From the NCBI GenBank assembly GCA_004322045.1, contig SCRN01000004.1, forward strand, positions 1 through 64,000: a stretch of 64,000 bases of DNA, given 5' to 3'. Position 1 is the stretch's first letter. Each line of letters starts with the position of its first letter. Positions 26,744 to 47,071 of the stretch are shown here, piece by piece. The position numbers and the translations under genes were made by a program. The stretch is from Paraburkholderia sp. GTDB lineage: Bacteria > Pseudomonadota > Gammaproteobacteria > Burkholderiales > Burkholderiaceae. The notes below the pieces were generated by a model that was given only the letters and a program-made list of their open reading frames with translations, made no database searches and had not been told where the DNA came from.

Positions 26744-26750
26744 GCCGCGC

Positions 26751-31369: not shown

Positions 31370-31519
31370 CGCGCGCAAGCGCCTGAACGCGCGGCTGGCC
31401 GGTTCTCGGTCCGCACTTGGCCATCCGGCCGACTGCACGGCCGAGCGTTGCGGGGATACGCTTCGCACCTGTTGCCCGCTCCTTCGTTGGCGGGCCGCCG
31501 TAGAGGAGCGTACCCGTCG

Positions 31520-32146
31520 ATGTCAGCCGTCGTTGTTTCTTTTGCCCATCGTTTAGTGTCTTGCGCGGTCCGGCGCGTGCCATCGTATCGGTCGACGAAC
31601 GAGCGGCCGTTTGCGACCGAGCCGCGCGCCGATAAGCTCGGCTTTACGCTGATCGAATTGATGATCGTGCTCGCCATCGTCGGGATCGTCGCTGCTTATG
31701 CGGTGCCAGCCTACCAGGATTATTTGGGTCGCAGCCGGGTGGGGGAGGGTCTTGCACTGGCCTCGGGCGCGCGGCTTGCGGTGGCGGAGAATGCCGCGGG
31801 CGGTAACGTATTCGGCAGTGGTTATGTTGCGCCGCCCGGCACACGCAACGTCGAGTCGATCGACGTCGACGACGACACTGGGGAAATCACGATCCGCTAC
31901 ACGTCGCGCGTGGCGCCGGCGGGCAGTGAAGTACTCGTGCTCGTGCCGTCGCTGCCCGATGCCTCGGATCCGCCCACCTCCAGGGTCGCGCTCGCCTCCG
32001 GGGTGATGCAGGGCGGGACGCTGACGTGGGAATGCTTTGCGTCGGGCAAGTCGTCCTCGACGCTGCCCGCGCCGGGCGAGGGGCCTGCGCCGCTCACCGG
32101 CGCGACGCTGCCCGCCAAGCTCGCGCCCCCGGAATGTCGCGCTTAA
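31520..32146 (+). CDS. pilA: type IV pilin-like protein (PilA type)
   Basis: The prepilin has the class III signal [21 protein letters not shown] with Glu at position 5 after the cleavage site, then [13 protein letters not shown] and a globular domain. A C-terminal cysteine pair (ECFASG and PPEC) encloses a Ser/Thr/Pro/Ala-rich loop. PilD would cleave and methylate it, and it is exported to the pilus or pseudopilus. From the ATG at 31520 the leader would be 41 residues, much longer than usual; a GTG at 31577 would give about 22. The adjacent pglL suggests it is O-glycosylated in that loop. Confidence 0.83.
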
Positions 32147-32227
32147 ATACGCGCGAGCGCTAAATGTGCGCGGACACTGAAAGAAAATTTTTGTATAGTG
32201 CGCCGGTTGCCGACGGTCCCCATCCTC

Positions 32228-34021
32228 ATGACCTCTCCATTTGCACGCTATCTATCGTTCACGTCTTTGGCCTTTGCGTTGCTGGTGCCCTATGCGGTCA
32301 CCCGCCATACGTACCCCATCCCGACGTTCTACGCCGAGTACACGGCGCTGGCGCTGTACCTGCTCGTCGGTGCTTCCGTCCTGGTCCTGACGGCGTCGGA
32401 GGGGCCGCGTACGCCGTACGCGTTGCCCACCGTCGCGCTCGTGCCGCTCGCATTCGGCGGCTTGCTCGTCCTGCAGACGGCGGTCCTGCCCCTCGCGCAG
32501 CCTTCGATGGCGTGGCTCGGTGCCGGCTTTCTCTTGGCGGGGGGCATGGCCACGCAGGCCGGCTATGGGTTCGCGCGCGCAGGCGTTGCCGAGCGTGCGC
32601 TTCGCTGGGCGGCCGGGGCGCTGATCGTCGGCGGGCTATTCGCGGTGTTTTGCCAGCTCGTGCAGTTGTTTCATGCGGAGGCGCGATTCTCACCCTTCGT
32701 CGTCGCTTACAACGTGACTTCCGACCGGCGTCCGTTCGGCAACATGGCGCAGGCCAATCATCTCGCGACGGTGATCGCCTTCGCCCTCGCAGGCGCGATG
32801 TATTTGGTACAGACCCGCCGCCTGAACGTAGTGGTATGGGCGCTCGTCTCGTCGATCTGCGTGCTCGGGCAGGCACTGACGGTATCGCGTGGGCCTTGGT
32901 TGCAAACAGCCGTCATCGTGGTCGCCGGTTTCTGGATGGCGCTCGTGCTGCCGCGTCGTGACGGGGCGCAAGGGCGAAGCTTGCGGGCATGGATGATTCC
33001 GGTCGGGCTCATCGTCTTGTTTTGCGCCGTGAACATCGGCGTGCGTTGGGCGAACACGCGCTTCGACCTTGGATTGGATGTGTCTGCCGCGCATCGCTTT
33101 CAGGACAAAGGCCAATTCGTCCTGCGTCTGGCGATGTGGAAATACGGATGGACGATGTTCACGCAGCATCCGTTGCTGGGTGTGGGCTGGGGCGAGTTCC
33201 CGCGCTATGAGTTCGAGCTCGTGAAGCGTCTGGGCGATGTCGAGATCGCGAACAACTCGCACGATATCGTGATCGATTTGCTTGCGAAGACCGGCATTGC
33301 GGGCATCGCCATCGTTTTAGTGGGGCTGCTCGCTTGGCTCTGGCGCGTGTTGCGTGCCCCGCATACGGCCGAGCGCGTGTTCGGCTTGGCGTTGATCGGC
33401 GCGCTGCTCATGCACGCGCTGGTCGAGTATCCGCAGCAGTACATGTTCTTCCTGCTGCCGGCCATGTTCGTGTTCGGCATCTTGGAGACGAAGCCGATTT
33501 CGTTCGTGCCGCCTCGCATCGCGATGGGATGGCAATTGCTGCTCGTCGTCGGCGGGCTCGCCGCCTTGCACCCGATCTACCGCGACTACGCGCGCGCGGA
33601 AGTGTTGTATTACGGTGCGCATCCGGCCGACGAATACCGGGCTGCGCCGTCCAAGCTTTTCGGCGCATGGGGCGAGTACGGCATGGCGACGCTGCTGCCG
33701 ATCGACGGCAACGACCTGTCGACCAAACTGGCGATGCACGAGAAGGCGCTCGCGCTCTTGCCCGGCGAGACCGTGCTGCGGCGCTATGCGGTGCTGCAGG
33801 CGCTGGACGGCAAACAAGACCAGGCGTTCGATACGGTGGAGCGGCTGAAGATCTTTGCCGGTGTGCTGCACGACTGGCCGGCGCAGCTATCGGCCCTGTA
33901 CGACTTGTGCGAGGACGAGCCTAAGCTCGCGGGCTTCAAGGCCGAGCTTTTGAAGCGTTATGGGCCCGCACCGAAGGCGGCCGCCACCGAGGACGACAGT
34001 GACAGCGATAGCGAGGAATGA
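32228..34021 (+). CDS. pglL: PglL-type O-oligosaccharyltransferase (Wzy_C family)
   Basis: The 597-residue membrane protein has about eleven hydrophobic helices. It carries the Wzy/WaaL/PglL core with a large periplasmic loop containing PFGNMAQANHLATV and the later HPLLGVGWGEFPRYEF and NNSHDIVIDLLAKTG, whose histidine is typical of the active region. A C-terminal soluble part (about 430-590) follows, of the kind seen in pilin glycosyltransferases. It would transfer lipid-linked glycans to Ser or Thr of exported proteins in the periplasm. It lies 81 bases after the pilin gene, which is the likely substrate. The ATG at 32228 precedes the first helix. Confidence 0.87.
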   Translation: MTSPFARYLSFTSLAFALLVPYAVTRHTYPIPTFYAEYTALALYLLVGASVLVLTASEGPRTPYALPTVALVPLAFGGLLVLQTAVLPLAQPSMAWLGAGFLLAGGMATQAGYGFARAGVAERALRWAAGALIVGGLFAVFCQLVQLFHAEARFSPFVVAYNVTSDRRPFGNMAQANHLATVIAFALAGAMYLVQTRRLNVVVWALVSSICVLGQALTVSRGPWLQTAVIVVAGFWMALVLPRRDGAQGRSLRAWMIPVGLIVLFCAVNIGVRWANTRFDLGLDVSAAHRFQDKGQFVLRLAMWKYGWTMFTQHPLLGVGWGEFPRYEFELVKRLGDVEIANNSHDIVIDLLAKTGIAGIAIVLVGLLAWLWRVLRAPHTAERVFGLALIGALLMHALVEYPQQYMFFLLPAMFVFGILETKPISFVPPRIAMGWQLLLVVGGLAALHPIYRDYARAEVLYYGAHPADEYRAAPSKLFGAWGEYGMATLLPIDGNDLSTKLAMHEKALALLPGETVLRRYAVLQALDGKQDQAFDTVERLKIFAGVLHDWPAQLSALYDLCEDEPKLAGFKAELLKRYGPAPKAAATEDDSDSDSEE

Positions 34022-34079: not shown

Positions 34080-34292
34080 TCACAGCCCCCGTCGGCGGCG
34101 CGGCCGGGACTCGATGCCATTCGCAGCCAGTAGCCTGCGAAGCCGATGGTTTTCCGCGAACAGACCGACAATCACGATGGTCATGATGATCGGCCCCGAC
34201 CACTCCCCGGTGTAATGGTAGAAGGCCCACGCACCCAATGCGCATGCAATGGCGGTCAGGACCAGGGCGATACGGTCAAGAATCCAGTTCAT
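34080..34292 (-). CDS. 70-residue two-helix membrane protein, possible immunity partner
   Basis: The small protein has two hydrophobic helices (about 7-25 and 31-48) and a strongly basic C-terminal tail ending RPRRRRGL. It is the second gene of a two-gene unit, overlapping its partner by ATGA (34289-34292). Small two-helix inner-membrane proteins encoded directly after a protein with a helical hairpin are often immunity factors, but this is inference. No family is recognised. Confidence 0.55.
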   Translation of the reverse strand: MNWILDRIALVLTAIACALGAWAFYHYTGEWSGPIIMTIVIVGLFAENHRLRRLLAANGIESRPRRRRGL

Positions 34293-34762
34293 GCGAGCGC
34301 CACCTGCTTTCGAGGTGTCGCGGCGCGATGGCGGGACGCATAGCCTCTCCGCGAAGGGGAATCGATGATGACGTCTGGGTTGCGCTGCAAGAAGGCCAAC
34401 ATCGTCACCGGAATATGTACGCGGTTGCGACCGGCCCATCGTGTGACCGATGATGATACTTGTGCGCCGTTGGTGCAGACCATCGAATCACTGGCCGCAA
34501 CCATGAGACTTCCGATCACAGCGCCGGTGTAGGCCGCAGCGCCAATCCCCGCTATCGCCGCCAGGACCTCCAATCCAGTTGTCGCGCCAATCATTTCGGC
34601 AACAGTGGCGTCCGCACCAAGCTTGGACAGTGCGCCGAGCATTGCAGACAGGTTGGTCATTGCAGTCGTGTACGTCGAGAACAGACCGTCGGGTGCGGGC
34701 AGGTTCAGGGCGGCCATGTTCTTCTGGAATGCCGCTTTAAAGCTAGGGCAAGTGACGGGCAT
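34289..34762 (-). CDS. 157-residue protein with hydrophobic hairpin, candidate membrane-active effector
   Basis: The protein has no N-terminal signal. Residues about 1-60 are amphipathic. About 68-101 forms a hydrophobic stretch rich in Ala and Gly (LEVLAAIAGIGAAAYTGAVI, followed by GSLMVAAS) like the hairpin of pore-forming toxins. A basic C-terminal third follows. It contains two cysteines (positions 5 and about 107). GAGG lies 6 bases before the ATG at 34760-34762. It is translationally coupled to the 70-residue membrane protein. I do not recognise a family; an effector role is a hypothesis from architecture and pairing. Confidence 0.5.
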   Translation of the reverse strand: MPVTCPSFKAAFQKNMAALNLPAPDGLFSTYTTAMTNLSAMLGALSKLGADATVAEMIGATTGLEVLAAIAGIGAAAYTGAVIGSLMVAASDSMVCTNGAQVSSSVTRWAGRNRVHIPVTMLAFLQRNPDVIIDSPSRRGYASRHRAATPRKQVALA

Positions 34763-35037
34763 ATTGGTCCTCGGATATTTTTGTCTGGGAATTTTATCCG
34801 ACAAATGGCTCCCTGCTGCCTCTGGACGGGGCCAAGCGGTCCGAGGGACCGCGACGCTGCGCATGCGGCGAGCAAAGCGCAAACGACAGTCGTTGCAGTG
34901 ATTCCCGTCTCCTTGGGACAGGATCGACTCTGAAAGCCGTCGCTGAAACGGTGGACGTGTGCAGCACGGGATCAACGACCGACCAGGGGACTATGAGCGT
35001 TGAAGGGAAAACCCTCTTGAACAGTGACTTAGCTTTC

Positions 35038-35158
35038 CGCCACCCAATCCCCCGACTTCCCGCCATGCTTCTCCATCACCTTCACATCGGTGATGACCAT
35101 CCCCCGATCCACCGCTTTGCACATGTCGTAGACGGTCAGGAGGCCCACCTGCACGGCC
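35038..35158 (-). repeat. displaced moaC 3'-end fragment, left border (att) of the moaC island
   Basis: These 121 bases match the 3' end of moaC at 44088-44208 without gaps, with about 14 mismatches by hand count and two exact runs of 27 and 30 bases. Read on the minus strand they encode the last 40 or so residues of MoaC ([17 protein letters not shown] through KSGDWVAES). This is the gene end displaced when the element integrated; it has no start and makes no protein. Confidence 0.9.
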
Positions 35159-35206
35159 TTTAAAATCAATTGCTTACGTTCGCTTAGATGTTCGATCTCG
35201 GCCAAT

Positions 35207-35237
35207 CCTGTTGGTTGAGCGGAGCAGCGTTGGAGCA
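35207..35237 (+). repeat. left arm-like repeat of the moaC island
   Basis: CCTGTT, then GGAGCAGCGTTGGAGCA at 35221-35237, repeats the sequence at 43941-43970 (15 of 17 bases in the second part, same orientation). It lies 49 bases inside the left border and may be an integrase or excisionase arm site. Confidence 0.55.
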
Positions 35238-35346
35238 GACTGGAATCAGGAAGATTTGCTGTTCCAACACCAAGCGCAAGTTTACGTTATGCGTAGCCTG
35301 AGACGCCAGCGGCGCAGCACGACGCCTCCCATCAGATTGTGCGCCC

Positions 35347-35460
35347 GTTGGACATGCGCTAAGGCGTGGCGACGCGCTGCACCGGCGCTACGTGAGTCTC
35401 GATGTCCGCGATGTCGCCGGTCCGCTAGCGGAGATTCAGGCAGCGTTGATGGCGCGAACG
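35347..35460 (+). pseudogene. degraded C-terminus of a tyrosine integrase
   Basis: The frame GHALRRGDALHRRYVSLDV followed by RDVAGPLAEIQAALMA is the end of a phage-type integrase, with the RYV tyrosine. The upstream catalytic region is missing. The DNA at 35346-35380 is clearly related to 41150-41195, another fragment of the same integrase type. The remainder of 35238-35556 has no gene. The reading frame happens to stay open into the GIY-YIG gene. Confidence 0.55.
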
Positions 35461-35556
35461 CGTTCGGGCAGCCTTGGACAGCGGACAGCCCTTACGACGT
35501 TCTGTGGCGGGCGAAGTCGTCCACCAGCAGGGTGCCGTTTCGATGGGCGACCGGAT

Positions 35557-36303
35557 ATGATGGGACACGAAAGCATGTCGCTTCTAGACGACGACACTCA
35601 TGACGGGGAAAGCATGGAGATTCCTTTCAAGCCGACAAGATCGTTCTGCTATCACTTTTCGCGTTACCAAGCGTTGCCTGAGATCCTCGAAAGCCCAGAA
35701 GCCGTCAGCGGTGCGCCGTTCCGGCTACTGGACGTATCCAAACGCGTGATCGACAAGTATCTGACGCCTGAGCAGCAGGCAACCATGCTGAAACGCGCAG
35801 AATCCGACCGCGAAGACCCGATGCTTCGCGTCATCAAGTATTACATTCCCTTCATAGCGAAGAACACCGACCAGTTGATCCCTTTGGGGAACGGCATGTT
35901 CCGACTGCCTACGGTGGACGACATCAGCGACGACGATCTCGAAGAGGCGGCGCTGGAAGATGAAGCGGATGCGGACGCAGATGATTTCGATGGAAGTGTC
36001 TATGCGTTCAGCTTTCCGGCGCTGGTCAAGGACAACGCCCCGTTCCCGATCAAGGTCGGAAGGACCACAGGCGACGTAGACGCCCGCGTACAACAACAGT
36101 GCAAGGGCGCGGCGACATTCGATAATCCGGTCATCTTGGGACGCTGGCCGGTCAAGAGGGTCGGGGCTGTCGAGTCCGCCATTCACAGCGTTCTTCGCTC
36201 GCGCGGCAAGTGGCGCGAGAACGTACCGGGAATCGAGTGGTTCGATACAACGGTTCGCGAGATCGAATCAATCGTCAGCTTTGTTGTGAATTCGCCCGTG
36301 TGA
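35557..36303 (+). CDS. GIY-YIG superfamily protein (T5orf172/MUG113-like)
   Basis: The product of about 248 residues has an uncharacterised N-terminal half with an acidic stretch (about 128-147). Its C-terminal domain fits the T5orf172 branch of GIY-YIG nucleases: VYAFSFP (GIY-position strand), FPIKVGRTTGDVDARVQQQ (YIG-position strand with conserved Arg), AVESAIHSVLRSRGKWRENV (conserved Glu and His) and IEWFD. Such domains occur in phage and defence-island proteins and may cut nucleic acid. Starts at 35557, 35575 and 35611 are all possible. It is the first full gene of the moaC island. Confidence 0.7.
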   Translation: MMGHESMSLLDDDTHDGESMEIPFKPTRSFCYHFSRYQALPEILESPEAVSGAPFRLLDVSKRVIDKYLTPEQQATMLKRAESDREDPMLRVIKYYIPFIAKNTDQLIPLGNGMFRLPTVDDISDDDLEEAALEDEADADADDFDGSVYAFSFPALVKDNAPFPIKVGRTTGDVDARVQQQCKGAATFDNPVILGRWPVKRVGAVESAIHSVLRSRGKWRENVPGIEWFDTTVREIESIVSFVVNSPV

Positions 36304-36337
36304 TTGATAGCAGGGCGGTAGCTCTGCAAATACCAAT

Positions 36338-36688
36338 ATGAAAAGAACTCTTCTGCTGGCCGCCGTCCTGCCGTCGATAGCTGTTGCTTCAACCATCTCA
36401 GACTTCACGTCGCAGGTCCGTTGGACATCCCGAAACGGCCAACTGCTTTATGGCGGCCCGTGCCAAGCCACGTTCGGAACCACCGGTGTTTCACCGACGA
36501 AGCCGCTCGCTATCACGCTGTCGTGTCCGGGTTATGCGGAAGCACGCATATACATCTGGACCCAGACCGATCTCGCGACTGTCGGTACTTTACCTGCGAG
36601 GGTGACGCACAAGCAGCGACGGTCGATGTCTCTCCTAACTGCTGAAGGGGAAACGCTCACCTTCTCCATCGATCCGAACGCTGAGTGA
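36338..36688 (+). CDS. small exported protein of unknown function
   Basis: The 116-residue protein opens with a signal peptide (MKRTLLLAAVLPSIAVAS) and continues with a beta-rich region holding two cysteines (GGPCQATFG and TLSCPGYAE) likely to form a disulfide in the periplasm. No family is recognised. It lies 34 bases after the GIY-YIG gene on the same strand. Confidence 0.6.
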   Translation: MKRTLLLAAVLPSIAVASTISDFTSQVRWTSRNGQLLYGGPCQATFGTTGVSPTKPLAITLSCPGYAEARIYIWTQTDLATVGTLPARVTHKQRRSMSLLTAEGETLTFSIDPNAE

Positions 36689-36728
36689 CAACTGCACTGG
36701 CATCGGTGCATATCGAACTTAGAAGCCT

Positions 36729-37811
36729 ATGAAGACCATCGAAGATTTACGTCCGACCGAAAAGCAGCTAGTTTCACAGGTTGTCCGAGCCGTAGGCATT
36801 CCGACCGACGATTGGAAAGGTGCCGATGATCCGAGCAAACGATCAAACTGGTGTTTCGGAGAAGCCGGGAAAGCGAATGTTGCGTTCATCTGGCACAACA
36901 ACCTTCGACGCGACGGCGATCATATCTATGTTGTAAATGACGCCGCAGAACGTGCCGATATTTGCAGGCGAGATGGGCAGCATCAGCGCGCAAAGCGTGC
37001 CGACAATCTTGATCGACTGATCAGTCAGTCGTATTTCAAGAAGAAGCCGATCAGGGTCGCCATAGTGTCGGGTAGTGCTGACATGGATCACGACAAGGCG
37101 AAGTATCGTGTTCTCGACGACGAATCGTGGTTTCCTCATCATCGCGATCCTGATACCGGAAAAATCATAGTCATTCGTGGCGTGCCACAATCGGATGACT
37201 TTGACCCTTCGGCCAATTTCTTGGGAACTGGGTCTTCGTCAGCGCTGGGTGGGACGGCGACCGAAGCGCAATCTCTGAAGGAACCCGCAATTTCGGAATC
37301 CCTGCAAACGCAGGCGGATAAATCCATTCTCTCGACTATCGATGAGGCTTCCCAAACGCACGAAGTTCATGAAGAGCTTCCTGCGCAGTTGCCAGATGCT
37401 GTTGAACCGATTTACCCCGATGAAGTGCCAGATGTGCCCACGAACGGTACTTTTGCCGAGGGTGCAACGCGGCAAGTGCTTGTCAATCAGTATGAGCGTA
37501 ACCTGCGTGCACGATCAGCATGCATACGGCATTGGGGAACCGTGTGCTACGTATGCGGCTTCGATTTTCAAAAAGCATACGGGGACATGGGCCGTGGATT
37601 CATTCATGTGCACCACCTGACTGAGATCGCCAGTATCGGCGCTGAATACGAAGTTGACCCTCACGCCGACCTACGACCCGTATGCCCGAACTGTCACGCT
37701 ATACTGCATTCGCAGCGACCGGCCATCGACATTGACGAACTGAAGTCAATGCTGGCTGTAAGGCGCAGTAGTGGGGAATCGGACGATGAACCGAATGTGC
37801 TGACTGCATAA
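36729..37811 (+). CDS. HNH endonuclease, possible modification-dependent restriction enzyme
   Basis: The 360-residue protein has a C-terminal HNH nuclease domain (about 270-340): CYVCGFDFQKAYGDMGRGF, then HVHHLTEIASIG, DPHADLRPVCPNCHAILH, with the paired CxxC zinc ligands and the catalytic HH. Its N-terminal domain (about 1-150) ends with a VLDDESWFPHHRDPDTGKII pattern, reminiscent of recognition domains found in McrA-like enzymes, joined by an acidic linker. The nuclease assignment is firm; recognition of modified DNA is only suggested by that architecture. No methyltransferase gene is nearby. Confidence 0.8.
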   Translation: MKTIEDLRPTEKQLVSQVVRAVGIPTDDWKGADDPSKRSNWCFGEAGKANVAFIWHNNLRRDGDHIYVVNDAAERADICRRDGQHQRAKRADNLDRLISQSYFKKKPIRVAIVSGSADMDHDKAKYRVLDDESWFPHHRDPDTGKIIVIRGVPQSDDFDPSANFLGTGSSSALGGTATEAQSLKEPAISESLQTQADKSILSTIDEASQTHEVHEELPAQLPDAVEPIYPDEVPDVPTNGTFAEGATRQVLVNQYERNLRARSACIRHWGTVCYVCGFDFQKAYGDMGRGFIHVHHLTEIASIGAEYEVDPHADLRPVCPNCHAILHSQRPAIDIDELKSMLAVRRSSGESDDEPNVLTA

Positions 37812-37838
37812 CTCGTTGATCTCGGGGGGGAAAGCCGG

Positions 37839-38540
37839 ATGAACTGGAAGCGAATGCGGAAGTTCATGCGCCGATGGCTTTTGTACACGATCCACGATGC
37901 GTTTGCGCAGACGTTCGGCTGGCTTACCCTGTTCGGTGGATCGGTCGGCGGCTTCGTTCTCGCCAAGTTCGGAATTCGCACGGCCAGCGACCAGTTAACG
38001 ACTAACATCATCGGCGCGTTTGGCGGCTTCTTACTTGGTCTGTGCGTCTATGCGGTGGTCGGCTTCTTCAAGACCCAGCGATACATGCAGCCGCTTGCGT
38101 TGTCGATCACGGACGACGTTCGGTCGCCGGACTTCGCCTTCAACGATCAGTTTCGCGGCTACAGCGTGGCGACTATCGTCAGGAACCGTTCAGATGTGCA
38201 CTGGAAGGACTGCACCGCCCACGTGATGAACGCCCCACTGCACGACGGATCGACGGGCCCGCGTTATGTCGAGAAATTCGACCTGCCGCCGAAGTCGAGG
38301 AAGACGGTCTATATCGCCTACTGGTTCTCGCGCGAACCACCTAACCCCGATGACAACGACATCGGGCTTACGGGACCGGAAGCCGCATGTTGGGGCGGCA
38401 ACATATGCTGGGTTCCGGGCACTGGGGCGAATCTTCACATTCGGATTCGCCCACAAGACGCTGAATCCAAGGACCTTCACTGTCGGGTGTGGATCGACAC
38501 GACCGCTCGTAAGCTGAGAGCGGAACCGTTGCCGGATTGA
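37839..38540 (+). CDS. two-helix membrane protein with cytoplasmic domain, unknown function
   Basis: The 233-residue protein has a basic N-terminus and two hydrophobic helices rich in glycine (about 22-45 and 57-75), followed by a soluble domain of about 150 residues containing many aromatic and acidic positions. GGGGGGAAAG precedes the ATG. It lies between two HNH-type genes on the same strand. The layout resembles membrane-anchored effectors of defence systems only in outline; no family is recognised. Confidence 0.55.
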   Translation: MNWKRMRKFMRRWLLYTIHDAFAQTFGWLTLFGGSVGGFVLAKFGIRTASDQLTTNIIGAFGGFLLGLCVYAVVGFFKTQRYMQPLALSITDDVRSPDFAFNDQFRGYSVATIVRNRSDVHWKDCTAHVMNAPLHDGSTGPRYVEKFDLPPKSRKTVYIAYWFSREPPNPDDNDIGLTGPEAACWGGNICWVPGTGANLHIRIRPQDAESKDLHCRVWIDTTARKLRAEPLPD

Positions 38541-38562
38541 CCCATGCGTCTTCCATCATCTC

Positions 38563-39441
38563 ATGGCTGATTATTCAAAGAATCTCGCAGAGCGGTTTTC
38601 GAACCGTGGGCCGAAGGTAGGTTACTGTGCGATCTGTCGAACGCACGGCCCGCTTACGGCAGACCATGTGCCGCCAAAGAACTGCGGCAACATCAACGAC
38701 TCGATATTCACGGATGTCTACGGTCCAAGTCCTGAAAGACCGCGCAAGCCAGTTATGTCTCAGGGCGGGTCACATTTCAGGACGATCTGTGCGTATTGCA
38801 ACAACACGGTACTTGGTACGGAGTACGATCCCGCCCTCCGCGACGTAGTTCATCAGATAGAGACGTACTTCACGCTGGCTTCCCGTAGCCGCTTGTCGTT
38901 ACCCCGGACGCAACTGTTCGATTACCAGCCAAACAGGTTCCTACGTGCCGTCGCTGGACACTTGTTGGCCGCCAACGGCGTGCCTGATGTGGTATCAATT
39001 GATCCGGTTGCGCCACTGGACGCCGCATTGCGGGAGTACGTGCTGGACCCGGCGCGATGTCTTCCCGACGAGTTGTGCGTCTACTACTGGTTCTATCCGC
39101 ATCGACGCCGTGTCGTGATGAAACATTCTGCGATGGGGTTCTTCGGTGGCAACGGTGCGACCATCTATGGACACGTCTTCAAGTTCTTCCCGTTCGGGTT
39201 CTGGTTGGTATGGAACGAAGACGGTGGCCGAAGCCGTCAGTTCGCGTTGCGGCAAATGAAAGGCTCATCTCCATTCATCTCAGCCACGTCGCGTCTGGCG
39301 CTGGACCTATGGCCGCTACAGTCGCTGAACTTCCCGGAAGCGCCGTCGAATGACGGCATGTGGCTTGTGGCCGATCAGTATGTTTCTCAGGCAGACGACC
39401 GCAAGAAGCAGGGGGAAGCAAGAAGCGCAGAGTACCCGTAA
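38563..39441 (+). CDS. HNH-like zinc protein of unknown function
   Basis: The 292-residue protein begins with an HNH-like zinc core: YCAICRTHGPLTADHVPPKN (CxxC and DH), then TICAYCNN (CxxC-N). The rest (about 90-292) is a larger domain with aromatic strands (VYYWFYPHRRRVVMKHSAM, HVFKFFPFGFWLVW). The core resembles HNH nucleases of the DHVPP type; whether the C-terminal region recognises DNA or another target cannot be told. It starts 22 bases after the membrane-protein gene. Confidence 0.65.
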   Translation: MADYSKNLAERFSNRGPKVGYCAICRTHGPLTADHVPPKNCGNINDSIFTDVYGPSPERPRKPVMSQGGSHFRTICAYCNNTVLGTEYDPALRDVVHQIETYFTLASRSRLSLPRTQLFDYQPNRFLRAVAGHLLAANGVPDVVSIDPVAPLDAALREYVLDPARCLPDELCVYYWFYPHRRRVVMKHSAMGFFGGNGATIYGHVFKFFPFGFWLVWNEDGGRSRQFALRQMKGSSPFISATSRLALDLWPLQSLNFPEAPSNDGMWLVADQYVSQADDRKKQGEARSAEYP

Positions 39442-39903
39442 CGGTGACACTGCTACCGGCACGGTGGCCCAACGACCGGTGACGGTGACACTGGTTACAG
39501 TGTCACTGATAGCGTTTGCGCACACCACGGTCGGAATCCAGTGTCACCCGTTGACGTTGGTGTTGCCAGCACGCGGATGAGAGTGATATATACCGTGATT
39601 GGTGTTCGCGGTTGCTGGTACAACCGTGGTATCCGCCATGATGGTCGGCGACACGCCATTGGTGGTGTCTACCATTCCGATACCGTCACGTAGCACCATT
39701 GCCGCAGGATCAGACAGCACCATTGCCTTGATCAGTATGGTGCGCCACGGTGGGTACGTGGTCGATTGTGTGGTTGCCGTCGCGGGCACCATGAATGTCA
39801 ATGCCGCGACATGGCTGCTGTGCCTATGCGTGCACTACAGCACTGTCCCGCTGAGCATCGCGTTCGATGCTGCTCGCTGGCCTCAAGTCAACCGAGGGCG
39901 ATC
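39442..39903. other. 462-base repeat-rich intergenic region of the moaC island
   Basis: The first 110 bases hold four copies of the 9-mer GTGACACTG: two forward at 39444 and 39485, two inverted at 39498 and 39539. The spacing within each pair is 41 bases, and the inner two form a perfect hairpin with a GTTA loop. The rest is rich in ACCATTG/CAATGGT-like pieces. Short frames on both strands have a repetitive Thr/Val-rich composition and are probably not genes. Confidence 0.6.
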
Positions 39904-41058
39904 ATGCAGATGCGGAAATTGGTTCGGGCGGCTGTCGTCGTATTCTCGGCCTCGTCAAGTGGGGCGTTTGCGCAAGGTGCACCACAACCCGATCTGTCAG
40001 GGAATGACGCGCATTGGATCAAGCTCACGGTTTGGGGGCAGGATTGTTGGACGTTTGACCCTAACCCCGTTCGAGGCGAGTACGTAACGTGGAGCGGTGG
40101 TTGTTCAAACGAACTTACATCTGGAGCAGGAACTGAAACATGGTATCACCCGAATGGTGTTCTTAGTGGCACATCCACAGGCACGATGGTCAACGGTTAT
40201 TTTGAAGGTCAAGTGACGCAAGAGCACACGATAAATGGCGCGAGGCATCACGACGTTGGAAAATTTGTCCATGGCATTCAAAATGGTCACTCAACATTAG
40301 AAACTTACGACTCGAACGGTCGAATAACGGAGAGGGATGAAGTATATTTAATCAATAATATTGCCAGCGGACCGGGGAGTAAAACGCTATATCGACCAGA
40401 TGGGAGTGTATCTTGGCAATATACCGGCCCGTTTGCAAATGGTCGCCCTGCCCCGGGGCAATCGGCTGCCCCATCTGTTCCAAAAAATACGCCAACCATT
40501 TCTCAGAAAGCGGCTTCTCAGCAACCTGTTCAGGGTGTTTTTGATAATACTTCAAAAGCAAGCTTCACGTTTATGGGCATCAGGCTGGGCGTGCCTATAA
40601 CGGCGTCGGTGCCTGAGTGCCCCGCTGCCCCGGAAAAAGGACAAGTATGCTACGAAAATATTCGGGGCACATTGAATTTGAGTAATTTTCCCGAAATTGG
40701 ATTGGCATATTTACTTGGCATCTTAACCCTATACGACGACAACAAAAACCCGATTTACGAAATAGATATCAATTTCCTGGAAGCAGATTTGTCGGATGTT
40801 GTTGCAATGTTTACGGCGAAATACTTAAAACCAACATCAACAAAGACGGCTTACATTGACGTCAATGGTGAAAGGCAGGGCTACACATCGCCAACGTGGG
40901 ATTTGGGGGAGATAAAAATTGTCATATTTATGCAAGCTATAAACAATGGCATCAATCCTTTGGTGAAGATCATTGATAAGAAACTTAATGCCATACAAGA
41001 AGCCTACGATGCACGACAGAAGGAAAACCAGATTCAAAGCGGCGCATCAAAGTTCTGA
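39904..41058 (+). CDS. exported protein with MORN-like repeats
   Basis: The 384-residue protein starts at the ATG at 39904 (GAGGG six bases upstream) with a signal peptide ending near SSSGAFAQ. Residues about 50-180 contain glycine-centred repeats such as ETWYHPNGVLSGTSTGTMVN, NGYFEGQVTQE, HGIQNGHSTLETYDSNG and KTLYRPDGSVSWQYTGPFANG, like MORN-type variants. The C-terminal part (about 215-384) is a separate domain with two cysteines. The gene is AT-rich compared with its neighbours. Function unknown; a periplasmic or secreted binding protein is likely. Confidence 0.6.
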   Translation: MQMRKLVRAAVVVFSASSSGAFAQGAPQPDLSGNDAHWIKLTVWGQDCWTFDPNPVRGEYVTWSGGCSNELTSGAGTETWYHPNGVLSGTSTGTMVNGYFEGQVTQEHTINGARHHDVGKFVHGIQNGHSTLETYDSNGRITERDEVYLINNIASGPGSKTLYRPDGSVSWQYTGPFANGRPAPGQSAAPSVPKNTPTISQKAASQQPVQGVFDNTSKASFTFMGIRLGVPITASVPECPAAPEKGQVCYENIRGTLNLSNFPEIGLAYLLGILTLYDDNKNPIYEIDINFLEADLSDVVAMFTAKYLKPTSTKTAYIDVNGERQGYTSPTWDLGEIKIVIFMQAINNGINPLVKIIDKKLNAIQEAYDARQKENQIQSGASKF

Positions 41059-41073
41059 TGGTCACATTCTTTG

Positions 41074-41235
41074 ATGATGAAGAGAAGATCGGGAGCGCCG
41101 GAGTTCATCCTCCACGATCTGCGAGAGCTACTTGCCAGCGTGGCAGCCCGACAGGGCGTCTCAGACGCGATCCTGCGCCGCATTCTTGGACATGCGCCGA
41201 AGCGTGGCGACGTGCTTACGTCAGAGCGTAGGTAG
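41074..41235 (+). pseudogene. second degraded tyrosine integrase fragment
   Basis: A 53-codon frame encodes FILHDLRELLASVAARQGVS, then DAILRRILGHAPKRGDVL. That is the HxLR box and the second-histidine motif of a phage integrase, followed by an early stop before the catalytic tyrosine. It differs from both intact integrases in the window and is related in DNA to the fragment at about 35346-35380. Confidence 0.6.
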
Positions 41236-41314
41236 GGGGGAGAAGGAAGACGTTCAGTCATTCGTTCGCAATCGCACTATTTTTTGAGCCACACACCGCT
41301 ATGCTAAGTTTTCC

Positions 41315-42124
41315 ATGCAAGAAGGGCGAACTGTAAATAATTTGAAATATATGCGGGGGGTGCTGGACATGTTTGGAATTAATGGAGCGGTTGCGCAAGG
41401 CTTCTACGATAAGGCGCCAAACACATTTAAAGTGATGCAGCACTTGGTTATGGCGATGGATGATGTCGCTAAACATGCTGGGAAAAAGACTTGGTTTGGT
41501 CGAGATAAGACTGAACAGGTAGCCGCAGCGTTGGCCCAGAATATCGAGAGAGCAATTGCGGCGATGCGAAGCGATGGAATTATTGCGGAATTAGTATCGG
41601 CAGAAGATGTTCGTCATCAGTTACAAGAACAACTCGCAAAATTTTTTGAAGCCTTCCCGACGTGGGTTAACGCACAAATCTTCGCAACGATTTTCTTTTC
41701 TCAGGATAGCTCTTTGCAGATCGTGAAAGATCACATGAGAGCGTTGAATCGTGGGGATAAAGGTGGAACACTTTATGATAAAGCAAAAGCCGCGAGTCGA
41801 GAAATAATCATTGCAGGCTATCGTGAAATTGCTAGGCAAGCTGAGTGTGCGCCTAGCTCAAAGACGTCAGATGATGAGATTATCGAGATTTATCAGATCG
41901 TTGCGACAGCTTTCCATGAAGTCGCGGAGATAAGGGGTGAAAGGTTGTCGGCTGGCATCAAGAATGCGATCGTTCTAAAATTCCTTCAGTTAAAAGAATT
42001 GGACGTTTCCGTTGATTTTTTCGCGGAACATCTCAAATATGAACTGGATCGCTATCGCGCGAGTGGTCTACGAGATGACTATAAGCGCGAAATAAATCTA
42101 ATCAAAGTGCTTGGCTTGGAGTAG
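41315..42124 (+). CDS. helical protein of unknown function, low GC
   Basis: The 269-residue protein is predicted almost wholly alpha-helical, with no membrane segment, signal or catalytic motif I recognise. Its GC content is far below the backbone. It is followed 46 bases later by the 128-residue gene with a good AAAGGAG between them, so the two form an operon. A start at the ATG at 41351 is also possible. Confidence 0.6.
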   Translation: MQEGRTVNNLKYMRGVLDMFGINGAVAQGFYDKAPNTFKVMQHLVMAMDDVAKHAGKKTWFGRDKTEQVAAALAQNIERAIAAMRSDGIIAELVSAEDVRHQLQEQLAKFFEAFPTWVNAQIFATIFFSQDSSLQIVKDHMRALNRGDKGGTLYDKAKAASREIIIAGYREIARQAECAPSSKTSDDEIIEIYQIVATAFHEVAEIRGERLSAGIKNAIVLKFLQLKELDVSVDFFAEHLKYELDRYRASGLRDDYKREINLIKVLGLE

Positions 42125-42170
42125 GTGCCGGTTCAGATGCTGGTGCCGGCATCAATAAAGGAGAGACCAA

Positions 42171-42557
42171 ATGGGCTTGTTTTCGACAGTACGGGGCGCG
42201 TTCGCAGTTAGTTTGGAACTTGAAAAGGCAAAGACTCTGGCTAAAGAAATTGAAGACGCCATGAAGAACATATCACTTGCGGAAGAAAATCTGCGCATAG
42301 CGATATGTCAGGAGTTTCTGAGTCAGCGCCAGATTCTTCTCCGCGTAAAACCTACCTTGACTACCGAGCAACAAATCGAAATGGGGCGACGTCAACGTCG
42401 TTCCGCAGAAGACATAAGTAGGAAAGCGCGTAGCCGGGCCGATGAAGCACTCGGTTACGGGATGTGGCTTGGCGGTGCTTGGCTTGAATGTGGCGCTTCA
42501 AAATTTGAGCCTTGTGTTGTTGCTTACACCGTAATGGAACAGATGGTTCGCGGCTAA
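42171..42557 (+). CDS. small helical protein of unknown function, second gene of a low-GC operon
   Basis: The 128-residue protein has a hydrophobic or amphipathic start (MGLFSTVRGAFAVSLEL), a coiled-coil-prone stretch (about 18-50) and a C-terminal region with two cysteines (LECGASKFEPC). AAAGGAGAG lies just before the ATG. No family is recognised. It ends near a run of ten G residues. Confidence 0.55.
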   Translation: MGLFSTVRGAFAVSLELEKAKTLAKEIEDAMKNISLAEENLRIAICQEFLSQRQILLRVKPTLTTEQQIEMGRRQRRSAEDISRKARSRADEALGYGMWLGGAWLECGASKFEPCVVAYTVMEQMVRG

Positions 42558-42955
42558 TCATGAATGTGGGGGGGGGGACGCAATAGCCGGTAACACGCCT
42601 ATAATCGTCGGTGCCCATCATTGCGGTCACCGACCGCTGTACCGTGGTCGGTTGCATTGGTGCGGTCACCACCATTGAAAGTGAAGCACTGTTGCCGCCA
42701 ATGGTGGCGATGTTGCACTTTCGCCGCCGACTGTCGCACCGACCGTTGCCAATGCAATTGACCGGCGAAACAGTTGTTCCGGTGGCCGCGCACTGGTACT
42801 CGAAGTATTTTGAGACTTCAGAGACGAGAGTTGCTTTATCCATGGCTATCGGCTCAATTTAAGCGGTTTCCACATGGGGGAGCGCAGTTTCGCGAAATCT
42901 GTTCGTCTGCCAAGGTAGTCGGGCGACACTTCACACATGTCGCCCCCAAAACCGG
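42558..42955. other. intergenic region with a G10 tract and inverted repeats
   Basis: A run of ten G residues lies at 42568-42577. Further on, CCACCATTG (42669-42677) is inverted at 42699-42707, and GGTCACC/ACCGAC pieces recur. The composition resembles the gap at 39,550-39,900. An open frame on the minus strand from 42843 lacks a ribosome-binding site and overlaps the 128-residue gene, so I do not call it. Confidence 0.5.
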
Positions 42956-43939
42956 TCAACCTAGCTTTTTTGCCAACTCCGTGGCGGATGGATGGTAGTA
43001 CCTCTTCAACATCCCCAAGTTTCGGTGTCCCGAGACTGCGGCCAGTTCGATCAGGTTCGGTAGTTTTTTCGATAATCGGGTGATCGCAGTGTGCCGCAGG
43101 TCATGCCAGTGGAAGTCCCCGATGTTCGCACGTTTGCAGGCCTTTCTGAAGGCTGCATGCAATGTGTTGCCTTTGACCGGAATAACCAGACCATCAATCG
43201 AACGGGGCAGGTCAGCCAAGATACTGATTGCCCTTCGGGACAGTGGGACGGTTCGCGAAGCACCATTCTTCGTGATCGGCAAATATGCGGTCTGGGCTTC
43301 AAGATCGACGTTTGTCCATCGTAGCTCAAGCAGTTCACCGCGTCTCATTGCCGTTTCCAAGCTGAGAATGGCCGCAGGAAGCAGCCATATGCTTCGCCGT
43401 CCGGTTGCCACCATGGCCGCAAGAAGGCGTGTTTCTTCGTCGGTGGCGAGAACACTATCTCTGCCTTGTGTTGCTGGCGGCTTGCGAACCAACGTGACCG
43501 GATTGGTGACGTTGATATCCCACTCACGGCGCGCGTGATTGATGATTGCCGACAGGTACGCCAGTTCCCGAGTCACGGTGGCTGGCTTGAGCTTCTTCAG
43601 ACGCTCATCCCGGTAGGCAGCAATAGCCTTTGGGGTTAGGGCAGCGATACTCAGTTTCGCGAGTTTGGTGCGACAGGTCGCCCGAAGTCGCACTATGTCG
43701 TCCGCTCCCCCGCGCTGCGTGGGGCAGACCTCATCGATGTAACGCTCGATGATGTCTTGCAGTGTGTTGGCTTCGGCTTCACTGCGGCTGACGAAGCCTC
43801 CACGATCCATCTCCGTTTCAACTGATCGCGCCCACTGTTCTGCGTCGGCCCGGATACTGAAGGTCTTTACTTCGACTGGGAATCCCTTGCGGCGGATGCG
43901 TACTTGCCATTTGTCACTTCTACGATGTATAGCGGCCAT
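42956..43939 (-). CDS. int: tyrosine-type site-specific integrase of the moaC island
   Basis: The 327-residue integrase has an N-terminal arm-binding domain (about 1-50), a core-binding domain (about 55-150) and a catalytic domain with Arg199 (TAMRRGEL), Lys224 (ITKNG), His279-x-x-Arg282 (WHDLRHT), His305 (SGHRN) and Tyr314 in LKRYYHP. All catalytic positions are present. It faces away from moaC, whose stop lies 140 bases beyond its start codon, and would catalyse integration at the moaC 3' end. The repeat at 43941-43970 lies directly before its start. Confidence 0.92.
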   Translation of the reverse strand: MAAIHRRSDKWQVRIRRKGFPVEVKTFSIRADAEQWARSVETEMDRGGFVSRSEAEANTLQDIIERYIDEVCPTQRGGADDIVRLRATCRTKLAKLSIAALTPKAIAAYRDERLKKLKPATVTRELAYLSAIINHARREWDINVTNPVTLVRKPPATQGRDSVLATDEETRLLAAMVATGRRSIWLLPAAILSLETAMRRGELLELRWTNVDLEAQTAYLPITKNGASRTVPLSRRAISILADLPRSIDGLVIPVKGNTLHAAFRKACKRANIGDFHWHDLRHTAITRLSKKLPNLIELAAVSGHRNLGMLKRYYHPSATELAKKLG

Positions 43940-43940
43940 G

Positions 43941-43970
43941 CCTGTTCCTTAGTGGAGCAGGATTGGAGCA
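43941..43970 (+). repeat. right arm-like repeat of the moaC island
   Basis: CCTGTT, then GGAGCAGGATTGGAGCA at 43954-43970, mirrors the left repeat at 35207-35237 in the same orientation. It lies between the integrase start and the moaC end, where an integrase could also control its own promoter. Confidence 0.55.
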
Positions 43971-44078
43971 AGATCGATTATTCGTACCGCAAACGAGCGA
44001 GATTCCCGAAGCGCGACAAGGCCGCAACTGTGATGCAGAGTTCGTAAGGCGTCGAATTACGACTTACAAAATAATGCC

Positions 44079-44558
44079 TTACCCCTGCGCCACCCAATCC
44101 CCCGACTTCCCGCCGTGCTTCTCCATCACCTTCACGTCGGTGATCGTCATCCCCCGATCCACCGCTTTGCACATGTCATAAACGGTGAGCAACCCAATCT
44201 GCACTGCCGTCAGCGCTTCCATTTCCACGCCCGTGCGGCCGAGCGTTTCGACCTGCACTGTGCAGTGCACGCCGGGCAACGCCTCATCGAGCGCAAAATC
44301 GACGGCAACGCGCGTGAGCGCGAGCGGGTGGCACAGCGGGATCAAATCGGCCGTGCGCTTCGCCCCTTGGATCGCCGCGATGCGGGCGATGCCGATGACG
44401 TCGCCCTTCTTGGCGTTCCCATCGCGAATGAGCGCGAACGTCTCCGGCTTCATCCGAATCGTGCCGCGCGCCACGGCGATGCGTTTCGTTTCGTCTTTGC
44501 CGCCGACGTCGACCATATGGGCTTGGCCGGCCGCGTCGAAATGGGTCAATTCAGGCAT
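44079..44558 (-). CDS. moaC: cyclic pyranopterin monophosphate synthase
   Basis: The 159-residue protein is a full Moa[21 protein letters not shown] at the N-terminus, [32 protein letters not shown] with the conserved His and Cys, [20 protein letters not shown] and KHGGKSGDW at the C-terminus. It converts the GTP-derived cyclic intermediate to cPMP in molybdenum-cofactor synthesis. Its last 43 codons or so lie in the duplicated segment supplied by the integrated element, so the terminal residues (WVAQG) differ from those in the displaced fragment (WVAES). Confidence 0.95.
44088..44208 (-). repeat. right border (att) of the moaC island, inside moaC
   Basis: This is the functional copy of the repeat described at 35038-35158 and forms the present 3' end of moaC. 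The crossover point cannot be placed exactly; the exact 30-base run 44148-44177 is one candidate core. Confidence 0.85.
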
Positions 44559-44662
44559 TTCATGCTCCTTCGAACGGCGCTTATCTTAGCAGTCGCCGAA
44601 GCAGCGCAGGACGCGCCGCCGATGGCTGGCGAGATGCCGCCAACCCTCGGCTCAGACTTGCC

Positions 44663-45616
44663 TCACGCAAACCGGAAGAGCTTGGCGGGCGTGTCCACCA
44701 GCACGGCGCGCCTTGCGTGCTCGGTCGGCAACAGCTTGAGCATCAGCGCATAAACGGCGCCGTAACTTTCCACCTGCTCGAACTGCGTATGCGGCCAATC
44801 GCTGCCCCATATCAGCCGATCGAATCCGAACGCGCTTTCGAGCAGCGGCATGGCCGCGAGCGCGGTTGCTGCGCCGTTTGCATCGGGGCCGGACTTCGCC
44901 ACCGCGTTGCGGTACGCGCCCGACACCTTGACCCACACGCGCCTCGTCGCGCCGAGCGTGAGCAGATAGCGAAAGCCCGGATCGTCGATGCCAAGCGCCG
45001 GCTTCGGCCGTCCGAAGTGATCGACGACGATGTCGATCGGCTCGCCGCGGCGCTCGAGCAACGGTCCGACGACGCTCGGCAACCGCTGCGCCTCGCAATG
45101 CACTTCGATCTGCCAACCGAGCGAAGCGATCTTCTCGAGCGTCGTTTGCCAAACGGCGCTCGTATAGTCGGGGTCGGGCAGGCTGAACAGATTGAGCCGA
45201 ATCCCGACGATGCCGGCGCGTGCGAGCGCATCCAACTGGCCGGGCGCTGCCGCCACGGCCGCGGGATCGATGACGGCGATGCCGCGCAAGCGCTGCGGCG
45301 CCTGTGCGATCGATTGCGTCAGATATCGGTTGTCGGTGCCGAGGAAGCTCGGCTGGATCAGCACGCCGTGCGACACGTCATGGGCATCGAGCTGCGCGAG
45401 ATAACGCGAGAGCGGCGCGTCGTAGGCCGGCGCGTAGCGGCGCCGTTGCGCGAGCGGCAGGTCGTGGGAAAACACGTGCGCGTGCGTGTCGATCGCCGTG
45501 ATCTTGCCGGCGCGCGCGCGTTTGGGCGTATCCGCGCAGGCGCCTAGCGCGGTCGTCGTCAACATGGCCAATAGTCCTCGATTGAAAGTTCGGCGCGTCA
45601 GCTTACCGTTCGCCAT
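44663..45616 (-). CDS. TAT-exported amidohydrolase-family protein (possible lipoprotein)
   Basis: The 317-residue protein belongs to the amidohydrolase_2 family: IDTHAHVF (metal-binding HxH) after the signal, IRLNLF, IEVHCEAQ, VDHFGRPKP and the late WGSDWPHTQ with the catalytic Asp. The N-terminus carries a twin-arginine signal (KLTRRTFNRG) followed by a lipobox-like LGAC. Relatives hydrolyse lactones such as 2-pyrone-4,6-dicarboxylate. The ATG at 45616 follows GGAG. The downstream position to an MFS carrier gene on the same strand suggests uptake and hydrolysis of one compound. Confidence 0.82.
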   Translation of the reverse strand: MANGKLTRRTFNRGLLAMLTTTALGACADTPKRARAGKITAIDTHAHVFSHDLPLAQRRRYAPAYDAPLSRYLAQLDAHDVSHGVLIQPSFLGTDNRYLTQSIAQAPQRLRGIAVIDPAAVAAAPGQLDALARAGIVGIRLNLFSLPDPDYTSAVWQTTLEKIASLGWQIEVHCEAQRLPSVVGPLLERRGEPIDIVVDHFGRPKPALGIDDPGFRYLLTLGATRRVWVKVSGAYRNAVAKSGPDANGAATALAAMPLLESAFGFDRLIWGSDWPHTQFEQVESYGAVYALMLKLLPTEHARRAVLVDTPAKLFRFA

Positions 45617-45691
45617 TCGGTCGTCTCCAGTCATGTGTCGTGTTGGACGGGACGCCGGCATGCGGCGGCCCCGAGAGTATGCCTCGCACGT

Positions 45692-46984
45692 TCATCGGCG
45701 CGCGGGCGCGACGCCGGATGAGCTTGCATGCGCGTCGCCGTCCGGCAAGGCATCCGCTAGCGCACGGCCGCGTGTTTCGGGCAGCATCAGGACGGCGAAG
45801 ACGACAATGGAGTAGGCGATCGCCGCATCGACGCCGATAGCGAAACCGAGCGTCGTTGTTTTGGCGAGGTGACCCACCATCACGGGAAAGGCAGCGGACA
45901 CGACGCGCCCGAAGTTGTAGCAAAAGCCGACACCGGTGCCGCGCATGCCGCGCGGGTACAACTCGTTGAAGAGCGCACCCATGCTGGCGGGGATCCCGGC
46001 GGCAAAGAATCCGAGCGGGAAGCCGACCACGAGCATCGCCCCGTTGGTCAACGGCACGAACAGATAGACGAGCACGGTGGCGACGCACGCAATCGAAAAC
46101 AGCAAGATGGTCCCGCGGCGGCCGATCCGATCGAGCAGTTGCGAACTTGCGATGCAGCCGCAAAAGAACGCGAAGATGATCACGGCAAGATAGCCGCCGG
46201 TGCCGAGGACGGACAGGTGACGCTCGGTTTTGAGGTAGGTGGGCAGCCACGTCATGAGGGCGTAGTAACCGCCGTGCGCCCCGACGCCAAGCAGTGCGCC
46301 GATCAGCGTCATCCGCAAGACGCGCGGCAAAAAGATATCGAAAAACGGAATGCCGGGCGCGCTGCTTCGTGCGGCGTTGCGGCGTTCGGCGGGCGCTACC
46401 GGTTCGACCACGCCACGGCGCACGTAGATGACGAGCAAGGCGGGCAGGAGTCCGAGCGCGAACATGGCGCGCCATGCCGTCGCGCCGGGGAGCAGCGAAA
46501 ACATGGCGGTATAGAGCAGGACGGCGGCGGCCCAGCCCACGGCCCACGCGCTCTGCACGGTGCCCATCGCTTTGCCGCGATGCTCGGCGCGAATCGACTC
46601 GGCCATCAGCACGGCCCCGGCTGCCCATTCGCCGCCGAAACCGAGCCCCTGCAGCGTCTTGAGCACGAGGAACTGGGTGAAGTCCTGCGAGAAGGCGCAG
46701 GCGAAGGTGAAGACCGAGAAGAAGGCCACTGTGAGCTGCAGCGTCCGGACGCGGCCGATGCGATCGGCCAGTGCGCCCGCGATCCAACCGCCGAGCGCCG
46801 AAGCGACGAGCGTCGCGCCGCTCACGAGGCCTGCTTCGGTTTTACCAATGGCCCATTCGGCGATGATCGCGGGAATGACCAGGCTGAACATCTGCACGTC
46901 GAGCGCATCGAGGGCCCAGCCGCCGAAGCACGCCCAAAACGTGCGGCGCTCGGTGGGGGAAATGTCTTTGAACCAGCTGAACAT
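45692..46984 (-). CDS. MFS transporter (aromatic acid/sialic acid:H+ symporter type)
   Basis: The 430-residue carrier has twelve predicted helices, the motif GALADRIGRVRTLQ between helices 2 and 3, GLGFGGEWAAGAVLMAE in helix 4, DRIGRRG in the second half and a final LPETRGRAL. It resembles carriers for aromatic or other carboxylic acids. It is flanked by a GntR regulator gene upstream and the amidohydrolase gene downstream, all on the minus strand, forming a likely catabolic unit. Confidence 0.87.
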   Translation of the reverse strand: MFSWFKDISPTERRTFWACFGGWALDALDVQMFSLVIPAIIAEWAIGKTEAGLVSGATLVASALGGWIAGALADRIGRVRTLQLTVAFFSVFTFACAFSQDFTQFLVLKTLQGLGFGGEWAAGAVLMAESIRAEHRGKAMGTVQSAWAVGWAAAVLLYTAMFSLLPGATAWRAMFALGLLPALLVIYVRRGVVEPVAPAERRNAARSSAPGIPFFDIFLPRVLRMTLIGALLGVGAHGGYYALMTWLPTYLKTERHLSVLGTGGYLAVIIFAFFCGCIASSQLLDRIGRRGTILLFSIACVATVLVYLFVPLTNGAMLVVGFPLGFFAAGIPASMGALFNELYPRGMRGTGVGFCYNFGRVVSAAFPVMVGHLAKTTTLGFAIGVDAAIAYSIVVFAVLMLPETRGRALADALPDGDAHASSSGVAPARR

Positions 46985-47071
46985 CGTGTGTCTCCTGATA
47001 GCGCTTGGGCGCTAGTTATCCTGGGCTGCCGCGCGTTGTGGGGTGCGACGCCTTGCAATCGGGCTGCGTCC

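Follow-up and report, generated by a model that had tools for sequence, protein, structure and literature searches.

Why should the end of a gene, moaC, occur a second time at some distance from the gene, on the far side of an integrase? Here, we address this question for a stretch of 64,000 nucleotides of Paraburkholderia sp. (contig SCRN01000004.1, positions 1 to 64,000; hereafter, the window). We identify the intervening DNA as an integrative element of 9,050 bp, neither conjugative nor of phage type, that was inserted in moaC by its own lambda-type tyrosine integrase, a reading to which we assign a probability of about 0.92. In the mechanism that we propose, the integrase would pair the attachment site of the element (attP) with a site inside moaC (attB) and exchange strands at the heptamer ATGTGCA, which lies between the codons for D128 and K131. 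Because attP would carry the remainder of a moaC gene, the joined gene would be complete, its product continuing from about residue 131 into a C-terminus supplied by the element (WVAQG), and the original end of the host gene (WVAES) would be displaced to the far border.

Anatomy of the element

The two borders of the element carry the same sequence. Positions 44088-44208, which on the minus strand are nucleotides (nt) 351-471 of moaC, recur at 35038-35158 without gaps, with 107 of 121 bases identical (88.4%) and at a spacing of 9,050 bases. The identical positions include runs of 30, 27, and 20 bases, and a somewhat longer repeat (35020-35158 and 44070-44208, spacing 9050) is 85% identical over 139 bases. 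Because the five other direct-repeat families between 33500 and 46000 are only 25-32 nt long and 70-87% identical, the 121-base repeat stands far above background. An earlier reading of this DNA from its letters alone (the sequence-only reading) had described the repeat as the last 121 bases of moaC, gapless, about 88% identical and 9,050 bases away; all of this holds except the span, which excludes the final 9 bases of the gene. These bases, stop codon included, lie outside the repeat and mostly differ between the copies. The displaced copy keeps the reading frame and ends in WVAES, and moaC itself ends in WVAQG, which agrees with the substitute C-terminus that the sequence-only reading had proposed. 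A direct repeat of the end of the target gene is present at both borders in the 13 elements compared, this one included. The guanine-plus-cytosine content is 53.7% within the element and 63.9% (25000-34000) and 65.3% (44210-60000) outside it.

The predicted product of the joined gene aligns without gaps to the solved MoaC structures 4pyd and 1ekr over residues 1-156; judged by this alignment, its length of 159 residues and its Pfam match (7e-58), the target gene appears to remain intact. In the repeat, the copy on moaC is the element-like one: over nt 412-465, it is nearer than the far copy to 8 of 8 carriers, by 3 bases in each case, and the bases after its stop codon are similar to those of the carriers.

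The integrase gene is on the same strand as moaC, reads away from it and starts 139 bases beyond the moaC stop codon. The protein also matches phrog_1 (2.5e-61). In its AlphaFold model (predicted local distance difference test, 88; predicted template modelling score, 0.63), the N-terminal domain is predicted to fold like arm-binding domains, with three strands and a helix, and the nearest solved folds are those of the Tn1549 and lambda integrases. Those integrases likewise have the N-terminal three-strand domain modelled here, whereas their sites differ and identity is 18-22%. R199, H279, R282, H305, and Y315, which we take to be catalytic, are invariant across 29 integrase sequences. As in a gene-restoring island, the recombinase is thus a tyrosine recombinase with a predicted N-terminal arm-binding domain.

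Related integrases and uninterrupted moaC sites

A search of genome contigs with the integrase gave nine loci (G and L numbers below denote genomes and loci), eight of which are full-length relatives with 72-88% identity. In all eight, moaC lies directly upstream, with 142-146 bases between its last aligned residue and the integrase start. The ninth locus matches over 62 residues (41%) and lacks moaC. A sample of 398 family genomes out of a larger group gave a match at E 1e-80 or better in 35, the window's own included. Loci are given for 29 matches besides that of the window, and nine further matches are without a locus. In these 29 loci, moaC occurs within 1.5 kb upstream of the integrase gene in 11 of 11 with at least 68% integrase identity, in three of four at 54-57%, a group that corresponds to genus g13 (genomes of about 2 Mb), and in none of 14 below. 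The 144 genomes of genus g21 include 10 carriers, of which G443, G466, and G445 are new, and 60 and 65 genomes of two further genera include four and two, none new. Several G genomes, judged by their coordinates, duplicate named contigs; with duplicates counted once, the integrase directly follows moaC in 17 of 18 other genomes whose integrase is at least 68% identical.

On a tree of 33 integrases, the moaC label needs two changes, and none of 500 shuffles gave a value as low. The alignment and trees are without L027 (129 residues to the first stop) and L038 (10 residues) and contain L028 with 298 residues; L030, L031, L034, and L040 were left out because named contigs already represent their genomes. 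A further 12 elements have a second, displaced moaC end (that of G070 on another contig), as do three of genus g13. A 47% identical integrase (L002; G000:C53) lies elsewhere in the same genome as the window, without moaC in the stretch examined.

Ten other genomes of the same genus were compared at the moaC site. In four of these (G009, G004, G003, and G001), the next gene after moaC, within about 150 bases, is the protein-glycosylation/O-antigen ligase gene that in the window lies beyond the far border. Among sibling elements, this gene adjoins the far junction (attR) in L098 and L025, lies at a greater distance behind it in L028 and L023, and in L097 (G443) comes after a phage tail-sheath-like gene (L097:16239-17288). 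The uninterrupted sites, the repeated moaC-integrase junction, the second moaC ends and the paired border motifs described below together support the proposal that an integrative element occupies moaC in its 3′ part.

The sequence-only reading had also predicted that an uninterrupted moaC would be followed by the genes at 34,080-34,762. G006 has both genes behind moaC, and in G005 a single small gene of this block (34080-34797) separates moaC from the ligase gene, but the four clean relatives have neither. From this distribution, the genes at 34080-34797 look like an older insertion at the same site. In G006, they are followed by a 27-nt copy of the moaC end, which thus sits behind the older-insert genes. 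A moaC-like fragment in strains lacking the element had been named as evidence against insertion; such fragments exist in a weak form, as this copy and as a 27-nt match in G008. One gene of the pair within 34080-34975 has no family match, and the other is short with only a sub-threshold match to DUF998. The shorter gene, which is the one of the two covered by the search of sibling regions, also occurs in G005 and in the L027 region. That the two form an effector-immunity pair is a guess.

Probable exchange core, arm motifs and the integrase N-terminal domain

Among 85 positions, ATGTGCA is the sole 7-mer that is identical in the moaC-side junction (attL) and attR of 13 of 13 elements, several others reaching 12. 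It spans the codons for M129 and C130 and the first base of that for K131; D128 and K131 are, we assume, active-site residues of Escherichia coli MoaC. This identity suggests that the exchange point is probably ATGTGCA, at moaC nt 385-391. In L023, L025, L027, L028, G123, G070, and G443, the moaC copy begins sharply at nt 382-385. An alternative is that host DNA makes up all 121 bases of the copy, with the exchange at nt 351. This is less likely because attP would still need to carry moaC from nt 351 and only the heptamer at nt 385 is identical in all 13 pairs.

On either side of the core, the element carries a paired motif. Within the 5.99-Mb genome, the pair TGCTCCAAnnCTGCTCC has two copies, one at 43954-43970 and the other at 35221-35237; the reversed control has none. 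Its half-sites are 11 bases apart, and the first lies at +203 to +209 from the core in 13 of 13 elements; the far pair lies at -114 to -101 in 12 of 13. In the remaining element, G350 (L113), the far pair is at -184/-173, about 71 bases outward and in step with a longer piece of moaC, as if attP had captured sequence of the target gene. L025 has one far half-site under the strict pattern, with GGTCCAA as its partner. Most other carriers have a pair resembling TTGTCCAAATTCTGTCCAA instead, and L038, of which one end is known, has a further variant. The arm type is equal at both ends in 16 of 16 elements. Four elements (the window, L027, G350, and G443) are of the GCTCC type, and nine among the 13 compared pairs are of the GTCCAA type; in genus g13, the types assigned by eye are GTCCAA in G223, GGCCTAA/TGTCC in G273, and GCTCG in the first element of G313.

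We suggest that the N-terminal domain of the integrase would hold the synapse by binding these paired motifs, at -113/-102 and +204/+215 from the core. Because the motif at +204/+215 adjoins the start of the integrase gene, the integrase is probably self-repressing. In KplE1, the promoter of intS overlaps attL and self-repression has been shown, according to the part of PMC2951348 considered here. The window would share this arrangement, and self-repression is only predicted there.

The type of arm motif goes with the N-terminus of the integrase. Alignment columns 5, 16, and 22, picked after the fact from the whole alignment, are the sole ones that separate GCTCC from GTCCAA integrases (4 versus 10). 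Four later sequences (L027, L089, L091, and L095), with N-termini close to ones already compared, fit these columns, and in the model residue 5 is placed inside the three-stranded sheet and residues 16 and 22 at its edge. Trees of the two parts of the protein conflict. The N-terminal 52 residues group the GCTCC types with weak support (62/70), and the rest of the protein rejects this grouping (approximately unbiased test, p 4e-39). The integrases of the window and Paraburkholderia silviterrae are sisters in the rest of the protein (99/99) and not in the N-terminus (p 0.006). For the window and P. madseniana, the pattern is the reverse: their integrases group by the N-terminus (90/83), and the remainder of the protein rejects this grouping (p 0.003). 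In two further pairs the signal is less clear: the N-terminus rejects the pairing of L024 with L025 (p 0.002), which the remainder does not (0.154), and neither part rejects that of L021 with L026 (0.469 and 0.084). The groups were named after the sequences were known, and the p values of these tests are descriptive. On the catalytic tree, the arm type changes four times; in independent pairs on well-supported branches, residue 16 follows the arm type in three of three and the far arm follows the near arm in three of three, in both cases too few for significance. These comparisons indicate that the N-terminal domain is exchanged between sibling elements together with both arm motifs, at a constant target. 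Such exchange would account for the arm types GCTCC, found here, GTCCAA, most often seen, and the others in genus g13.

G313 (L109), a genome of about 1.9 Mb, carries a tandem of two elements at moaC. The tandem includes three moaC ends and shows two arm types; by eye, the first element has the GCTCG type at both ends, and the second has the GGCCTAA type at its far end. A search for an integrase in this second element found none, and the tandem is a single case. We raise, tentatively and with more doubt than confidence, the idea that joint exchange of domain and arms creates arm-specificity groups at the single moaC site, in that way allowing tandem elements to be excised singly without cross-reaction.

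Counter-evidence, alternative origins and significance

Several observations do not sit easily with insertion by a simple site-specific event. The core is placed by sequence identity alone, and attR resembles moaC already upstream of it, from about nt 351-355 in the window, G212, G176, G109, and G195 and from about nt 309 in G350; a single simple crossover would not produce this likeness. Single GTCCAA-like half-sites lie farther out in two GCTCC elements (at -230 in the window and -184 in G443). The host-likeness of the far copy of the repeat is weak, since over nt 412-465 it exceeds the moaC-side copy in only 6 of 10 same-genus hosts, and in the closest host the two are one match apart; by segment, host-likeness gives no clear decision between the origins of the copies. 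Among the relatives, G466 has an 81% identical integrase without moaC in the 19.9 kb around it and with a transposase-like frame directly upstream. The moaC gene of G008 is cut by an insertion-like sequence, its 27-nt moaC-end match being on another contig, and three of the ten same-genus genomes (L014, L015, and L017) have no ligase match behind moaC. Finally, no excisionase was recognised.

These observations have to be weighed against other origins of the repeat. It could have arisen by partial duplication of moaC through homologous or illegitimate recombination, with an unrelated integrase nearby, and it fits this idea that the copy is a mere gene fragment and that fragment lengths vary among siblings. 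However, a second moaC end accompanies an integrase at moaC in the 12 further elements, uninterrupted sites exist, and the paired motifs match between the ends, and we regard duplication as hardly credible. The paired motifs, in turn, might be operator sites of another regulator rather than arm sites of the integrase. One copy lies 14 bases upstream of the integrase gene, and the arm-site role is predicted; by contrast, the motif type goes with integrase residues 5, 16, and 22, in an N-terminal domain whose modelled strands and helix resemble those of arm-binding domains, making an operator role unlikely.

The cargo bears on two further alternatives. Among the eight cargo open reading frames (ORFs) searched, we found no virion, lysis, packaging, conjugation or replication gene; neither a relaxase nor a type IV secretion gene, as in an integrative and conjugative element; and no AlpA, primase or packaging match, as in a phage-inducible chromosomal island (PICI). 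A decayed prophage that lost its structural genes would explain the phrog_1 match of the integrase, the match of one cargo ORF to a phage family of unknown function, and the tail-sheath-like gene between attR and the ligase gene in sibling G443. Set against this, none of the eight ORFs matches virion, lysis or packaging families, a scan of IMG/VR limited to six peptide patterns confirmed no relative, and all 560 matching phage records are below 60% identity (39% for the best listed), so that this origin appears improbable. A phage-satellite-like island mobilised by a helper phage deserves more consideration, although we hold it to be doubtful. The size of the element would suit such an island, sibling G443 carries a BT4734-N and helicase-domain gene, and each arm has a doubled co-oriented motif. 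As far as described in the sections of PMC10111431 considered here, HE-PICIs have such a motif in each arm of attP, 81 upstream and 132 downstream of the centre. The element shares this doubled, co-oriented motif at a fixed distance but differs in motif, distances and target, and the absence of AlpA, primase and packaging matches among the eight ORFs argues against a satellite.

We retain the reading of an integrative element inserted in moaC by its own integrase, the features of which are collected in Table 1. The PADLOC matches of its cargo are all weak (best, 7.2e-5). The first 31 bases of the conserved stretch at 35348-35448 are partly copied at 41186-41216, and the region of about 41079-41216 (plus strand) likewise resembles an integrase C-terminus by eye. 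The window contains a second tyrosine integrase gene at 19841-20908 (plus strand; Pfam, 3.1e-26), 25 bases from a tRNA-Met gene (20934-21010, minus strand); no copy of at least 15 bases that would mark this tRNA gene as its attachment site was found elsewhere in the 64,000 bases, so that no end of a second element is apparent.

Table 1. Features at and around the moaC element (window coordinates)
Feature	Position	Strand	Basis or remark
moaC, 159 residues; predicted host origin up to the core and element origin of the 3′ part beyond it, WVAQG end	44079..44558	-	Pfam MoaC 7e-58
Probable strand-exchange core in attL, ATGTGCA = moaC nt 385-391	44168..44174	-	attL/attR identity
Paired arm-type motif TGCTCCAATCCTGCTCC, integrase-side arm, 14 bases upstream of integrase start	43954..43970	-	sequence motif, predicted
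Tyrosine integrase, 327 residues; N-terminal three-strand domain and catalytic domain	42956..43939	-	Pfam PF00589 Phage_integrase 7.7e-26; AlphaFold; fold comparison
Cargo ORF, 128 residues	42171..42557	+	weak PADLOC PD-Lambda-5_A match 7.8e-4
Cargo ORF, 269 residues	41315..42124	+	no family match
Cargo ORF, up to 430 residues, start uncertain	39766..41058	+	weak MORN_2 match below cut-off
Cargo ORF, 292 residues; homologues in L023 and L027	38563..39441	+	phrog_21495, 1.7e-28
Cargo ORF, 233 residues; homologues in L023 and L027 beside those of the 292-residue ORF	37839..38540	+	
Cargo HNH-type protein, 360 residues	36729..37811	+	phrog HNH 8.6e-7; PADLOC mREase_IV 7.2e-5; Pfam HNH below cut-off
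Cargo ORF, 116 residues; 91% identical homologue in P. silviterrae region (L098)	36338..36688	+	
Cargo T5orf172-domain protein, start uncertain	35392..36303	+	Pfam 5.6e-10
Conserved stretch near the far end, resembling by eye the C-terminus of a different integrase	35348..35448	+	similar DNA near far end in L098, L097, L028, L025
Paired arm-type motif TGCTCCAACGCTGCTCC, far arm, half-sites at -113 and -102 of core	35221..35237	-	sequence motif, predicted
Probable strand-exchange core in attR, ATGTGCA	35118..35124	-	attL/attR identity
Displaced moaC 3′ end, nt 351-480, WVAES, stop 35029-35031; from the core onward read as the host's own gene end	35029..35158	-	
Probable older insert, two small genes (one within the 34289-34975 ORF; MNWILD ORF ending at 34080)	34080..34797	-	not matched behind moaC in four clean relatives
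Protein-glycosylation/O-antigen ligase gene, native moaC neighbour	32198..34021	+	Pfam Wzy_C_2, Wzy_C, PglL_A; adjoins moaC in four relatives

Islands in protein-coding genes of the icd type, as presented in part of PMC10111431, have a long identity block when the site is well inside the gene, and their attP carries replacement sequence with which the gene still works. The element described here has the same long identity block and replacement of the gene end, while its target, moaC, differs. Literature searches for moaC and molybdenum cofactor genes as integration sites gave no paper that its title or abstract would identify as a report of a moaC target. Divergent arms at a common site are described in the portion of PMC3203893 drawn on here, in which Cluster K mycobacteriophages that share one attB differ in their arm-type sites, N-terminal residues 17 and 19 are proposed to matter, and Pixie and Tweety have a common site and different arm sequences. 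Compared with those integrases, the tree conflict here points to a domain exchanged together with both arms. Because arm-site divergence at a shared attB has this precedent, the modular exchange of arms is a stronger case of a known phenomenon, and the new part is the moaC target.

Altogether, moaC joins the protein-coding genes that are used as attachment sites, with a target on the codons of a conserved enzyme motif. The sibling elements form a natural series, in which the core target is constant and the arm domain and arm sites are exchanged, for the study of arm recognition by integrases. Insertion at moaC also accounts for the gene content that, in the examined genomes, varies between moaC and the gene for the glycosylation ligase.

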